DNA of 64,000 nt, from the NCBI GenBank assembly GCA_028874995.1, contig JAPPGM010000128.1:1-64000 (forward strand). Direction: 5' to 3'. Made by a program: the position numbers and the translations under genes. How positions within the stretch are numbered: position 1 is the stretch's first letter; every line of letters starts with the position of its first letter. The stretch comes from Gemmatimonadota bacterium (GTDB lineage Bacteria > Gemmatimonadota > Gemmatimonadetes > Longimicrobiales > Gaopeijiaceae). This document shows positions 18,256 to 25,034 of this stretch, one piece after another. Under the pieces are notes generated by a model. The model searched no databases. It saw nothing but the letters and a program-made list of their open reading frames with translations, and had not been told where the DNA came from.

Positions 18256-19956
18256 ATGAGCGAGCACCCCACCTCCCCTCCCGTCGGCCGTGTCATCGGC
18301 ACCGACCCGGCTACGCCCCTCGAGTTCTGGGTGGCCGTGAGCGAGGACCGCTTCCTGCAGCTCGACGATGTCGTCGTGGTCGAGCGGTCCCTCCCCGGGC
18401 GCTCCGAGCCCATCCGCATCTACGGCATGGTGGCCGACCTGCGCGTCCGGCACGAGGGCGCGCGCTTCGACAGCGATGTTTTCCTGATCGAGGACGGGGT
18501 GCTCCCGGCACAGGTGACCGAGGCCGCGAAGGTGCTGGCGACGCGTTTTGAACCGGAGGTGTTCGTCCCCCCGGTGCCGGGCGAGGTCGTTCGGAAAGCG
18601 GTCGGCAAGGCCCGCGACGAGGCCCTGTTTTTCGACGGCATGGAACGCCGCATTCCGGCCGGCCTCTCGCGCGACGGCGAGGTCATCCACGCCAACCTGG
18701 AGTTCATGGACGGGACGCGGGGCGCGCACGTGAACATCAGCGGCGTATCGGGCGTGGCCACCAAGACCAGCTACGCGGTCTTCCTGCTACACTCTCTCTT
18801 CACCTCGGGCGAGCTGGGGGCCGGCGCCCACAACACAAAGGCGCTGATCTTCAACGTCAAGGGCGAGGACCTCCTCTTCCTCGACCGCCCCAACCGCCAC
18901 CTCGACGGCGAGCAGATGGCGCGCTACACGTCGCTGGGCCTCCCGGCCTCGCCCTTCGCGAGCGTCGAGTTGTGGGCCCCGCCCCGCCGCGGCGACCCCT
19001 CCGCCGCCCCCCGCACCGGCAGCCGCGCCGACGGGGTGACCTCGTTCTTCTGGACGCTGGCCGAGTTCTGCCAGGACGAGCTTCTCCCCTTCCTCTTCGC
19101 CGACGCGGGGGACGAACGCCAGCAGTACACGATCGTGGTGCACAACGTGACGGCGCGACTCCGGCGCGAGGCCAATCCCCTCGACGATGGCGGCGTTCGG
19201 CTCGGCGGAGTCACGTGCCGCACTTTCGAGCAGCTCATCGACGTGATCAGCGACCGTCTGGAGGACGACGCCGACCGGGGCGACTGGGCGGGCCGCTCCA
19301 TCGGCACCGGCACCATCAACGCCTTTGTGCGCCGCCTCTACGCCTCCCGTCGCGACGCCGAGCACCTCGTCCGCGGCGACGTCCCCAACCCCGGCAAGCA
19401 CCGCATCGGCATGCAGGCGCAGGTCGCGGTGGTGGATATCGCGAAGCTGTCGCGGCGGGCCCAGCGCTTCGTCGTGGGGGTGGTGCTCTGCAGGACCTTC
19501 CGTGACAAGGAGGAGACGGGTGCGCGCGAGCCCCTCCTCTTCGTCGTGCTCGACGAACTCAACAAGTACGCGCCGCGCGAGGGACACAGCCCGATCAAGG
19601 AGATCCTCCTGGACATGGCCGAGCGGGGGCGCTCGCTGGGCGTGATCCTGATCGGTGCTCAGCAGACCGCCAGCGAGGTGGAGCGACGGGTGATCGCCAA
19701 CTCGTCCCTCCGGGTGGCGGGCCGTCTGGACAGCGCCGAAGCGGGCCGGCCCGAGTACGCCTTCCTCCCCACCGCGCACCGCCAGCGCGCCACCATCCTC
19801 AAGCCCGGCACCATGATCCTGTCGCAACCGGAACTGCCGGTCCCGCTGGTGCTGGAGTTTCCCTTCCCGGCGTGGGCCACGCGGCCGGATGAGGTGGGGA
19901 CGGCGCCCGGTGACTCGGAGGACACCGGCGATCCGTTTGAGGGTCTGGTGGAGTGA
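18256..19956 (+). CDS. HerA-like ATP-binding protein (DUF87-type DNA translocase)
   Basis: HAS-barrel-like N-terminus (GRVIGTDPATPLEFWVAV), variant P-loop NISGVSGVATKTSYAVFLL, Walker B LLFVVLDELNKYAP, GAQQTASEVERRVIANSSLRVAGRL. Confidence 0.82.
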   Translation: MSEHPTSPPVGRVIGTDPATPLEFWVAVSEDRFLQLDDVVVVERSLPGRSEPIRIYGMVADLRVRHEGARFDSDVFLIEDGVLPAQVTEAAKVLATRFEPEVFVPPVPGEVVRKAVGKARDEALFFDGMERRIPAGLSRDGEVIHANLEFMDGTRGAHVNISGVSGVATKTSYAVFLLHSLFTSGELGAGAHNTKALIFNVKGEDLLFLDRPNRHLDGEQMARYTSLGLPASPFASVELWAPPRRGDPSAAPRTGSRADGVTSFFWTLAEFCQDELLPFLFADAGDERQQYTIVVHNVTARLRREANPLDDGGVRLGGVTCRTFEQLIDVISDRLEDDADRGDWAGRSIGTGTINAFVRRLYASRRDAEHLVRGDVPNPGKHRIGMQAQVAVVDIAKLSRRAQRFVVGVVLCRTFRDKEETGAREPLLFVVLDELNKYAPREGHSPIKEILLDMAERGRSLGVILIGAQQTASEVERRVIANSSLRVAGRLDSAEAGRPEYAFLPTAHRQRATILKPGTMILSQPELPVPLVLEFPFPAWATRPDEVGTAPGDSEDTGDPFEGLVE

Positions 19957-19989
19957 AGCACCCGGATCAGCACACTCAACGATCCAAAA

Positions 19990-20007
19990 TGTAATGTCAA
20001 CTTTACA
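19990..20007. promoter_or_regulatory. Candidate operator dyad A: TGTAATG-TCAA-CTTTACA
   Basis: 6/7 inverted repeat with 4-bp spacer in AT-rich gap before mre11. Confidence 0.45.
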
Positions 20008-20010
20008 GAA

Positions 20011-20028
20011 TGTACACTACAGTTTACC
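20011..20028. promoter_or_regulatory. Candidate operator dyad B: TGTACAC-TACA-GTTTACC
   Basis: Same architecture as dyad A, start-to-start distance 21 bp; its reverse complement GGTAAACtgtaGTGTACA resembles 14001-14018. Confidence 0.45.
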
Positions 20029-20100
20029 AGTGCCCGAACAGATTAACTCGGGCGCCACCCCTGCAAGCCTGACCGGCCCCCCTCGCCCCCGCCGCCCCTC

Positions 20101-21258
20101 GTGAAGATCCTCCACACCGCGGACTGGCACGTCGGCCGAACCCTGCGCGGCCGCAGCCGCGCCGACGAACACAGGGAGGTCCTCGACGAGATCGTGGCCA
20201 TCGCGGAGAACCGCGCGGTCGATCTCGTCCTCGTCGCCGGCGACCAGTTCGACCGCGCGGTGCCCACCCCTGAATCCGAGCGGATCGTCTATGACGCGCT
20301 GCTGCGCCTGGCCCGGACCGGGGCCCAGGTCGTGGTCATCGCCGGCAATCACGACAACCCCCGCCGCCTGACCGCCGTTCGCCCCCTGCTCAAGCTGGCA
20401 AACATCAACGCGGCCTCATCGGTCGCACCGCCCGACCAGGGCGGCCTGCTTCACCTCGCCACCCGCTCCGGCGAGACCGCCCGTATCGCGCTCTTCCCCT
20501 TCCAATCGAAGCGTGGAATCGTCAAGGCCGAGGCGCTGATGACCGGGGACCCCGACGACCACCAGAAGGAGTACGCCGACCGCTGCCGCAGGATCGCAGA
20601 CGCGCTCTGCGCCGACTTCACGGCCAACACCGTCAACGTGGTCGTAGCCCACCTGACGGTCGTGGGTGCGGCCACCGGGGGCGGCGAGCGCACCGCCCAC
20701 GTCTTCGACTACTACGTTCCCGCCGACATGTTTCCCGTGGCCGCACACTACGTCGCCCTCGGGCACATCCACAGACCCCAGAGGATCCCGGGGCGCTGCC
20801 CGATCTGGTACGCCGGGTCGCCCTTCGCCCTGGATTTCGAGGAGACCCACGGCGAGCACCGCGTTCTGCTCATTGAGGCGGAGGCCGGCAAACCGGCGCA
20901 CATCGAGCAGGTTCCACTGAAGTCGGGGCGTGCGCTCACCACCATCCGTGGCGGCAGTCTCCAACTGGAGCAATTGGCGGGCACGACCGGGGACGACTTC
21001 CTGCGCGTCATAGTGGAGGAGGCGCCCACACCGGGCCTGGCGGAGCAGGTGCGGGACATGTTCCCCAACGCGGTCGACGTCATCGTGGCCCGGCCGGGCG
21101 AAACCGGCCCTGAGCGCAAGGCGATCGACCCGGGCGAGCTGCGGGATCCGCGCAACCAGTTCCAGCGGTACCTGAAAGAGCGCGGCATCGAGAGCGACGA
21201 GCTGGTGAGGCTCTTCGGCGAGCTGCTGGAGGACGAGTATGCGTCCCCTTCGGCTTGA
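20101..21258 (+). CDS. Mre11/SbcD-family DNA repair exonuclease
   Basis: GTG start; MKILHTADWHVGRTL, LVAGDQFDRAVPTPE, VIAGNHDNPRRL, YVALGHIHRPQ calcineurin-like phosphoesterase motifs. Confidence 0.95.
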   Translation: MKILHTADWHVGRTLRGRSRADEHREVLDEIVAIAENRAVDLVLVAGDQFDRAVPTPESERIVYDALLRLARTGAQVVVIAGNHDNPRRLTAVRPLLKLANINAASSVAPPDQGGLLHLATRSGETARIALFPFQSKRGIVKAEALMTGDPDDHQKEYADRCRRIADALCADFTANTVNVVVAHLTVVGAATGGGERTAHVFDYYVPADMFPVAAHYVALGHIHRPQRIPGRCPIWYAGSPFALDFEETHGEHRVLLIEAEAGKPAHIEQVPLKSGRALTTIRGGSLQLEQLAGTTGDDFLRVIVEEAPTPGLAEQVRDMFPNAVDVIVARPGETGPERKAIDPGELRDPRNQFQRYLKERGIESDELVRLFGELLEDEYASPSA

Positions 21259-24019
21259 GCTGGAGGGCTTCACCTCCTACCGCGAGCCCACGGTCGTGGA
21301 CTTCGCCGATACCGACCTGCTGGTCTTCACCGGCGCCACCGGATCGGGCAAGTCCAGCCTCATCGACGCGATGATCTTCGCGCTCTATGGATCGGTCCCG
21401 CGGTACGACCACGTCAGCCTGATCGCACCCGTCATCAGCCAGGGGAAGGTCCGCGCCCGGGTGCGGCTCGACTTCGAGGCGCGGGGAAGGCGGTACACGG
21501 CGGTCAGGGTAGTCCAGCGCACCACGACAGGCGCCACCACCCGCGAGGCCCGCCTCGAGGAACACGTCATCGGCCACCCGGTCAGGACAATCGCGGCCAC
21601 CGAAACGGATCTCTCGGCGAGCGTTCAGAACGACGTGATCGGCCTCGGCCTCGATCATTTCACCAAGTGCGTCGTGCTTCCCCAGGGCGAATTCGCCGCC
21701 TTCCTGCGCGCGAAGCCCGCCGAGCGCAAGCAGTTGCTGGAACGTCTGCTCGGGCTGGGACTCTACGAACGGTTGCGGAAGGCCGCGAACCTGCGGTGGA
21801 AGCTCGAGGAAGGCCGGGCCGACAATCTGCAATGGCAGCTGGACTCGGCGCTCGCGCACGCGACCCTGGAAGCCGTCGGCGCCGCCGAGGCCCGGGTCGA
21901 GGTGCTGGACCGGCTCCGGCGACGCGTTGACGAGGTCTCAACGCAACTGAACGAACTCGACTCGAAGATCCGGGCCGCCGCCGATCGATGGACAAAGGCG
22001 GCATTGCAGTCGGAGCGTCTGGCGGAGGTCCGCGTGCCGGACGGAACGGCCGAGCTGGCGACCCGCCATCGTGAAGCCGAGCAGGATCTCCAGCAATCCA
22101 CCGAGGCGTGGACGGCCGCCTCCGAGCACTTGCGCGGCGCCCGTTCGGCGCGGGAGGAACTCCCCGAGAAGGCGGCCATCGAGAAGGTCGTTGAGCAGCG
22201 CGACCAACTCGCGCACCGGGAAACGCGGATCGCGCAGATCCGGTGCGACCTCGAGGTGACGACGGCGACCGTGGCGGAGGCCATCCGGGTGGAGAAGGCC
22301 CTTCGGGACGAGTTCGCGCGGGCCAGGCAGCGTCTGAAGGAGCTGCCCGAAAGGTCGGAACTGGAGAACATTGCCCAGAGGCACGAGCAACTCCGGCAGC
22401 TTGAGGGCGACTTGGAGCGCACGCGCCTCGAACTGGCCCAGGCCGAGCAGGCATACGACACGGCCGCGCAGGGAAAGACCGAAGCGGACCGGATTCTGGA
22501 AGCCGCCACGGATGCTCTGGAAGCGCTCCGCACCGCCCACAGCGCCGCCGACATGGCCCACCATCTTCAGAAGGGCGAACCCTGCCCCGTCTGTCTCCAG
22601 GCCGTCGCCCGGCTACCCGACCATGACGCTCCCGCCGACCTGGACGCGGCCCGCAGGCGATGCCACGCGGCACAGGAGTCCTGCAGCGGGGCCATCGCCG
22701 AACGGGACCGTTGCGTCTCGGCGCGCACCGCCCGCGCCACCGCGCTGGAACTGCAGAAGCAATCCACACAGTCGCTTCGGCAGTCCCTGGCGGATGCTCC
22801 GGCCCAACCGGCGATCACCACCATGATGGCCGAGATCGCCCGGACGGATGCACAGATCCGCCTGCTCGAAAACCGCCTGAACGACGCGGCCGGCGAGCGC
22901 ACCGCCCGGGAACGCGATGCGCACCACGCCACCGCGGCGCTGGAAGAGCAGGAGAAGTCCGTCGCGACCCTCCGCGACCACCTGGCTACGGCCCCTTCTC
23001 CAGAGGAGACGGCCGCACTGCTGGACAAGATCCGCGCGGCCGACGAGTCGGTGCTTCAGGCCCGAACCGGGGAGGCGTCCTCCCGGCGGGCGCACGACAC
23101 CGCCGCGGAGGCGCACCAGCGCTGGAAGTCGCGGCTCGGCGGCGCCTGGAGCGAATACCACGCCGCACGCGATTCAGTCGCCGAAATGAGTCCGCCGCCC
23201 TTCGCGGACGGAGACCTGGCCGGCTCCTGGGACGCCCTGTTCCAATGGGCCCGCCGCACCCGCGCGGCCACGAAAGCCGTCGTTTCCCAGGCCGACGCCG
23301 ATCGCACCGCCGCATCCCGCGAGAAGGACCGCCTCGATGCGCAGATCCGGCAACGTTGCGCAACCGACGGCATCACGCTCGACCCGGACGAAGCCCCCGC
23401 GCAGAAGGTCTCGGAAGGCCTGGGTGCCGCCCGCAAGGAACTCGACCATCTCCGTGCCACCTCCGAGAAGAGACGGCGCGTCGAGGCGGAAGCCCGCGAG
23501 ACCCGTGTGCGAACCCTCATCGCCAGAGACCTGGGCAGCCATCTCGGCGCAAAGAAGTTCGGCGCCTGGATGCAGAACCAGATCCTCACCTGGCTCGTCG
23601 AAGGCGCCACTGCGCGGCTGCACGAGCTGTCCAGCGGCCAGTACTCGCTCGATCTTTCCGACCGCAACGAATTCCTGGTCATCGACCACCGCAACGCCGA
23701 CGAACCCCGCCTGGCCAAGACCCTCTCCGGCGGCGAGACGTTCCTCGCCTCGCTGGCCCTCGCGCTGTCGCTGGCCGAGCAGGTTGCCAATCTCGCCGCC
23801 CACGGTAGCGCGAAGCTGGAAGCCCTCTTCCTCGACGAAGGCTTCGGAACCCTCGATTCGGAGACGCTCGACGTCGTGGCGGCCACCATCGAACAGCTGG
23901 GCACCGAGCGCATGGTGGGGCTCGTGACCCACGTTCCCGAACTGGCCGGCCGCATTCCGGTCCAGTACCGGGTCACGAAGGTGGGTAACTCGTCTTCGGT
24001 CGAACGCGTGGAGACGTGA
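21239..24019 (+). CDS. Rad50/SbcC-family SMC ATPase
   Basis: GATGSGKSSLIDAMIFALYG Walker A, GEFAAFLRAKPAERKQLLERLLGLGLYERLR, CPVC zinc hook at 22583-22594, LSGGETFLASLALALSLAEQV signature, LFLDEGFGTLD Walker B. Confidence 0.97.
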   Translation: MRPLRLELEGFTSYREPTVVDFADTDLLVFTGATGSGKSSLIDAMIFALYGSVPRYDHVSLIAPVISQGKVRARVRLDFEARGRRYTAVRVVQRTTTGATTREARLEEHVIGHPVRTIAATETDLSASVQNDVIGLGLDHFTKCVVLPQGEFAAFLRAKPAERKQLLERLLGLGLYERLRKAANLRWKLEEGRADNLQWQLDSALAHATLEAVGAAEARVEVLDRLRRRVDEVSTQLNELDSKIRAAADRWTKAALQSERLAEVRVPDGTAELATRHREAEQDLQQSTEAWTAASEHLRGARSAREELPEKAAIEKVVEQRDQLAHRETRIAQIRCDLEVTTATVAEAIRVEKALRDEFARARQRLKELPERSELENIAQRHEQLRQLEGDLERTRLELAQAEQAYDTAAQGKTEADRILEAATDALEALRTAHSAADMAHHLQKGEPCPVCLQAVARLPDHDAPADLDAARRRCHAAQESCSGAIAERDRCVSARTARATALELQKQSTQSLRQSLADAPAQPAITTMMAEIARTDAQIRLLENRLNDAAGERTARERDAHHATAALEEQEKSVATLRDHLATAPSPEETAALLDKIRAADESVLQARTGEASSRRAHDTAAEAHQRWKSRLGGAWSEYHAARDSVAEMSPPPFADGDLAGSWDALFQWARRTRAATKAVVSQADADRTAASREKDRLDAQIRQRCATDGITLDPDEAPAQKVSEGLGAARKELDHLRATSEKRRRVEAEARETRVRTLIARDLGSHLGAKKFGAWMQNQILTWLVEGATARLHELSSGQYSLDLSDRNEFLVIDHRNADEPRLAKTLSGGETFLASLALALSLAEQVANLAAHGSAKLEALFLDEGFGTLDSETLDVVAATIEQLGTERMVGLVTHVPELAGRIPVQYRVTKVGNSSSVERVET

Positions 24020-24020
24020 A

Positions 24021-25034
24021 GTGAGCGAGGGCGGGAAACGCGTCGATTCCCTGTCGATCGAGGGGTGGTCCCCCGAATTCGGCTCCCCCGTCGAAACGGA
24101 CAGGGACGAGGTCCCCGCCGCGCAGGTCGACGCCGGGGCGGAGCTTCCCCCGGCGGAATGGCGTCCCCTGGGCGCGGCCGGCGCAATGAAACCGGCCAGG
24201 GTGTACTTCGTCGACGGGGTACGCCGGATCGAGGCGCGCGTGTGGATGAGCCATGGAGGCGAGCCGAGTCTTGGGATCTGCGCGTCCTACGGGGCGGGCG
24301 TGGTCCGTTGCGGCCGCAGGGCGGAGATCGTGGCGGCCCGCGTGCGGCGCGCCTTCTTCGGCAGGGCCGGCGTGCCCGACCTCGTGACCCGGGCGGGCAC
24401 GTTCACCGCATGCCCGGTCGCGGACGACGACATCCGGCAGCTGGTGAACGGGCTGCAGGAACGCATGGGACAACTCGAGATCGAGGTGGCGGAGACCGCG
24501 CTGCCCTCCGCGTCGCGATCGTCCCGCGACGGTGCGCTGATGGTGGTGGACGGTCCACTACGCGGCCGCCAGCGCATCGCCGGCGCGACCGGCTACGTCA
24601 AGAGCCATCGAGTCCAGTACCTGTCCGGCGAGCCGCGCGCGACCGTCGCCCGCCTCGCTCCGGGGCAGCGCACTCCCGTCTTTCTCATCCAGACCACCTG
24701 GACCCGCTACTCGTGGTACCTGCGCCTCACCCGGGCCGAGGGTCATCCCTGGGCCGGCATCGTGCGGTGCGAAGCGTGGCACGACACGGGGCTGGGGGAG
24801 GTGAAGAGATTGGCGGATGCCACGGCCGCCGTCCTCCCGCGATTCGCCTCGGAACCCCACAAGGACGACCGCGCCCCCCAGAACCTCTACCCGATTGGGG
24901 GCCTGGAACGCGAGCTGAGGCGCCGGCTTGGCGACACCGGGATGGTCTACCGCGCTCTCCGGCGCGCGGCGGGCGACTACCGACCGCGGCACGGATCCCC
25001 TACTGGCCCCGGTACCGCCGCAGTCCCACCTTGA
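24021..25034 (+). CDS. NurA-like nuclease domain protein
   Basis: VYFVDGVRRIEARV and LMVVDGPLRG acidic motifs, GYVKSHRVQYL, RAPQNLYPIGGLERELRRRLGD C-terminal motif; position at end of herA-mre11-rad50 run. Confidence 0.72.
   Translation: MSEGGKRVDSLSIEGWSPEFGSPVETDRDEVPAAQVDAGAELPPAEWRPLGAAGAMKPARVYFVDGVRRIEARVWMSHGGEPSLGICASYGAGVVRCGRRAEIVAARVRRAFFGRAGVPDLVTRAGTFTACPVADDDIRQLVNGLQERMGQLEIEVAETALPSASRSSRDGALMVVDGPLRGRQRIAGATGYVKSHRVQYLSGEPRATVARLAPGQRTPVFLIQTTWTRYSWYLRLTRAEGHPWAGIVRCEAWHDTGLGEVKRLADATAAVLPRFASEPHKDDRAPQNLYPIGGLERELRRRLGDTGMVYRALRRAAGDYRPRHGSPTGPGTAAVPP

Follow-up and report, generated by a model that had tools for sequence, protein, structure and literature searches.

The window, the 64,000-nucleotide stretch of Gemmatimonadota DNA analyzed here, carries four consecutive same-strand genes encoding HerA, SbcD (Mre11), SbcC (Rad50), and NurA. 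The open reading frames lie where the original prediction placed them, and the four identities it assigned hold. The features of the locus, including two candidate operator palindromes between herA and sbcD, are as follows:

18256..19956, + strand: herA, 566 aa; hexameric DNA-pumping ATPase of the Deinococcus type, matching HerA of PDB 7f6d
19990..20007, no strand: candidate operator palindrome 1, TGTAAACTNNAGTTTACA with 3 mismatches, kept in two relatives
20011..20028, no strand: candidate operator palindrome 2, TGTAAACTNNAGTTTACA with 2 mismatches, 21 bp from palindrome 1, kept in two relatives
20101..21258, + strand: sbcD (mre11), 385 aa, GTG start; nuclease subunit, identified by TIGR00619 and motifs
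21239..24019, + strand: sbcC (rad50), 926 aa; ATPase with a CPVC zinc hook, identified by TIGR00618, Pfam, and motifs
24021..25034, + strand: nurA, 337 aa, GTG start; nuclease, matching NurA of 7f6d by sequence and fold

The 20-bp overlap of sbcD and sbcC (21239-21258) and the start of nurA (24021) 1 bp past the sbcC stop (24019) are exactly as predicted. A feature absent from that prediction is the 144-bp spacing between herA and sbcD, so that the four genes may not be transcribed strictly as a single unit. The operon is flanked by TonB, SusD, and dehydrogenase genes.

Two palindrome sites such as those in the herA-sbcD gap occurred in none of 100 shuffles of the window. The 18-bp palindrome TGTAAACTNNAGTTTACA has ~140 copies in the genome at ≤3 mismatches, compared with 2 for the reversed control. 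A search at ≤2 mismatches recovered it from 22 of 23 genomes of the genus; 17 genomes from other genera had none. The genomic sites adjoin unrelated genes (loci L169 to L178, together with window positions 19990-20028). TGTAAACTNNAGTTTACA is probably a genus-specific candidate operator or a dispersed repeat.

HerA from the window matches D. radiodurans HerA (PDB 7f6d) at the sequence level with an E-value of 8e-152. The nucleotide- and metal-binding residues of D. radiodurans HerA (K175/T176, D220, and D487/E488) correspond to K170/T171, D205, and D433/E434, and the two proteins share a variant Walker A motif (GVATKT/GISGVATKT), Walker B, and the ASCE acidic residue. The acidic NurA-binding patch of the D. 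radiodurans protein (D78/E80/D81) aligns only in part: D74 is kept and aligns with D78, and E79/D80 lie nearby in a shifted position.

SbcD scored above the cut-off of TIGR00619 (180 bits, E = 7e-53) and contains the phosphoesterase motifs HTADWH, GNHD, and GHIH. The match of SbcC to TIGR00618 (E = 5e-71) falls below that model's cut-off, and its AAA_23 and SbcC_Walker_B matches exceed the Pfam cut-off. The zinc hook CPVC is located at residue 449 of SbcC, and Walker A, the LSGGE signature, and Walker B are intact. Judged by their sequences, SbcD and SbcC are of the bacterial type.

For NurA, the Pfam match was below cut-off (E = 0.005), and direct sequence comparison identified the NurA of 7f6d (E = 5e-21) and Thermotoga TM1739 (E = 4e-5). 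We modeled the protein using AlphaFold with the window protein and 35 homologs as input (mean pLDDT 89), and the predicted structure has the RNase H-like fold. A Foldseek search with this model, set beforehand as the test that could refute a NurA-like nuclease at 24021-25034, returned 7f6d_G, the D. radiodurans NurA chain that was itself modeled into a low-resolution map (E = 6e-19, TM 0.68), and TM1739, a crystal structure (E = 2.5e-14). The search thus upheld the NurA assignment; TdpAB subunits were among the weaker matches. Residues D65, E153, and D177 are invariant across the 36 homologs.

A break-processing set of HerA, SbcCD, and NurA is best known from archaea, and the cluster had been described as archaeal-type. 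This description stands for gene content, as the archaeal herA-mre11-rad50-nurA operon combines the same four activities in one cluster, but it fails for descent. The archaeal HerA models NF040937 and NF040819 gave nothing at E ≤ 1 for the window HerA, whereas the same models matched a SIR2-linked defense HerA of sister genome G017 at ~1e-36. SbcD scored best against bacterial SbcD (1e-35), compared with 7e-8 at best against archaeal Mre11, and archaeal HerA, NurA, Mre11, and Rad50 are not the closest kin of the four proteins. The family scores of HerA and SbcD rule out an archaeal origin of the set; at the sequence level, all four proteins are bacterial versions.

Two bacterial counterparts are already known: HerA-NurA itself (PMC9960219) and a four-gene cluster in Oceanithermus (PMC5448004). 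The D. radiodurans HerA-NurA complex (PDB 7f6d; PMC9960219) shares HerA and NurA sequence and fold with the window. D. radiodurans nurA and herA are treated as an operon (PMC9960219), and the link of their products with SbcCD has been described as still open (PMC4663267); in the window, by contrast, sbcD and sbcC lie between herA and nurA. The nurA-hepA-sbcD-sbcC cluster of Oceanithermus profundus (PMC5448004) unites the same four gene families in a bacterium. Compared by gene order rather than sequence, it differs in having nurA-hepA first with sbcD-sbcC downstream, whereas the window has herA first and nurA last. Bacterial NurA-HerA has been described as limited to a few bacteria, for example, Deinococcus-Thermus (PMC9960219). 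The literature searched, with subscription papers mostly outside its scope, contained no report of the four-gene set in Gemmatimonadota or Actinomycetota.

HerA of the Deinococcus type was detected in 102 of 150 Gemmatimonadota genomes, with one match per genome. NurA, searched with a single query, was found in 67 Gemmatimonadota genomes, all of which are among the 102 with HerA. The single copy of HerA in these genomes fits a core function. Together with the cluster reported from O. profundus (PMC5448004), these counts remove the oddity from the earlier statement that bacteria typically carry only sbcCD. Of 40 Gemmatimonadota loci that were fetched, 32 contain all four genes within the fetched stretch; nurA mostly comes first, and it comes last in the close relatives of the window and in G052. 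A scan of named genomes, in which 80 HerA loci were kept, recovered Gemmatimonadota, many Actinomycetota (Acidimicrobiia, Nitriliruptoria, Micromonospora, Actinoplanes, Catellatospora, and Phytohabitans), and a few others. The order herA-sbcD-sbcC-nurA also occurs in Acidimicrobiia, Nitriliruptoria, and Micromonosporaceae, and 56 of the 80 named loci contain all four genes in the order of the window; for 22 of the remaining 24, the available stretch was short or ended close to the cluster. The expectation that relatives would keep the genes together was therefore borne out (32/40 and 56/80 loci), at a frequency beyond chance and with variation in the exact order. Some records titled as BD2-11 clade or Gammaproteobacteria (L073, L076, and L077) contain operons nearly identical to those of Gemmatimonadota. 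L073 and G078 share an identical HerA, which makes the titles or taxonomy of some records look mislabeled.

Within the family of the window, a strong HerA match was present in 18 of 96 genomes, and NurA was found in the identical 18. SbcC was detected in all 18 and in 2 of the other 78. Co-occurrence with HerA was significant for both NurA (Fisher P = 7e-20) and SbcC (P = 1e-17), in a test that ignores shared ancestry.

Each of these 18 genomes contains one of two diverged versions of the operon, and none contains both. In the genus of the window, its version is found in G000, G017, and G064. The second version, with nurA first and a HerA ~41% identical to that of the window, is found in G053, G058, G059, G061, and G067. 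Upstream of the operon, ~18 kb is collinear with G058 and G061, where the TonB receptor gene beside the operon is 77-78% identical to that of the window. The downstream side is not collinear, and the downstream dehydrogenase gene is located ~260 kb away in G058. The operon thus sits at a synteny break, and we rejected a clean in-place replacement because the genus-mates share the upstream flank only. The presence of a diverged operon beside the same upstream genes suggests exchange of the whole cassette. In G035 (L044), the operon is a mosaic, with nurA from the second version ahead of herA, sbcD, and sbcC from the version of the window; this suggests that parts of the cassette can be recombined.

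In trees, the window's version falls among or beside Actinomycetota, to whose HerA proteins the window HerA is at most 71% identical. When both Gemmatimonadota versions were constrained together, the AU test rejected neither tree (P = 0.87 for HerA and 0.21 for SbcC), and the constrained HerA tree was likelier than the free tree. We therefore make no firm claim of a transfer from Actinomycetota to the family of the window: the tree that joins the versions survives the AU test, the branches are long, and the direction is unproven. As read from these sequences, exchange of the operon between lineages is suggested as the simplest reading, one that the trees leave formally unsettled; differential loss of two ancient operons may account for the pattern instead.

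The genome that contains the window also has AddA-like and AddB-like genes side by side on contig C151 (L155 310-7007). The AddA-like protein has UvrD helicase and PDDEXK_1 domains and matches TIGR02785 below cut-off (E = 4e-67), and the AddB-like protein has PDDEXK_1 (E = 4e-33). PDDEXK_1 matches of similar strength were found in most genomes of the family. Given this pair, HerA-NurA-SbcCD is an additional route rather than the sole end-processing machine, and a role as a stand-in for AddAB or RecBCD is ruled out for this genome.

We propose that the operon is probably a housekeeping DNA-end resection operon and not a defense system. SbcCD would recognize and trim blocked, hairpin, or protein-bound ends. 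A HerA hexamer topped by a NurA dimer would then translocate along the duplex, feeding DNA to NurA, which would digest the 5' strand to leave a 3' tail for RecA. Work on D. radiodurans and archaea supplies, by analogy, these steps, the 6:2 stoichiometry, and the passing of ends from SbcCD to HerA-NurA; the observations made here concern gene identities and order, active-site motifs, the NurA fold, linkage in two phyla, co-occurrence in the family, and coexistence with the AddAB-like pair. The closeness of HerA and NurA to the D. radiodurans complex, which performs end resection in vitro, supports this proposal, as do the intact catalytic motifs, four-gene linkage, family co-occurrence, and the failure to recognize a defense system in the operon; the single copies fit a core function. 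Among the roles that the original prediction had considered (repair, defense, or both), end resection and repair is accordingly the one we favor, with reasonable confidence. Several points count against the proposal. Deletions in D. radiodurans and Thermus left damage resistance modestly changed or even improved, which has put a bacterial repair role in dispute. In addition, the AddAB-like pair could carry out bulk resection, the co-occurrence test ignores shared ancestry, and the 144-bp gap may set herA apart from the rest of the operon.

It is unlikely, but worth weighing, that the locus contains two independent modules. SbcCD would cleave hairpins and blocked ends alone, HerA-NurA would act separately (for example, in linear-DNA degradation or with RecJ), and linkage would reflect shared regulation or ancestry rather than a single machine. 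The candidate operators within the herA-sbcD gap are consistent with this explanation, as are the variable position of nurA, which opens the cluster in some lineages and closes it in others, Thermus nurA-hepA without adjoining sbcCD (PMC5448004), the binding of RecJ by D. radiodurans HerA (PMC4663267), and the two family genomes that have SbcC without HerA. However, the overlap or 1-bp spacing within sbcD-sbcC-nurA groups nurA with sbcCD and not with herA. In addition, SbcC accompanies HerA-NurA nearly always in the family, and the linkage persists across two phyla and two gene orders.

A role against phages or plasmids, with HerA-NurA and SbcCD degrading foreign DNA as is thought for other HerA-linked nucleases and TdpAB, is very improbable. 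In its favor, HerA does partner effectors in known defense systems, TdpAB subunits do appear among the weaker NurA fold matches, and the patchy occurrence of the operon in the family, in two versions that were exchanged, would also fit. Against it, no defense-system model recognized the operon (HerA_antiphage_2 scored 12.9 bits, with its cut-off at 850, and PADLOC gave only weak partial matches to HerA and none to NurA), the neighbors are TonB, SusD, and dehydrogenase genes, and HerA is present in one copy in 102 of 150 genomes of the phylum. SIR2-HerA, other HerA-linked defense systems, and TdpAB share a HerA-like motor with the window but differ in their partner genes and in a much weaker similarity. 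Sister genome G017 contains two further gene pairs with a HerA-like ATPase (L157 1792-4852 and L158 3058-6036), and the upstream partner of the ATPase in L157 matches a SIR2 antiphage family. These pairs are likely SIR2-HerA defense systems, separate from the operon.

The set has a wider range than published: HerA occurs in two thirds of the Gemmatimonadota sampled, and many Actinomycetota, named Micromonosporaceae among them, have the full cluster. Its coexistence with an AddAB-like pair argues against the set being a mere stand-in for RecBCD or AddAB, and the survey yields candidate organisms for testing whether Mre11-Rad50/SbcCD passes ends on to HerA-NurA, as has been assumed. We tentatively suggest, at somewhat less than even confidence, that the SbcCD and HerA-NurA of Gemmatimonadota and Actinomycetota may be parts of a single bacterial end-processing machine, which would act beside AddAB-like enzymes and which lineages would inherit and exchange as a four-gene cassette.
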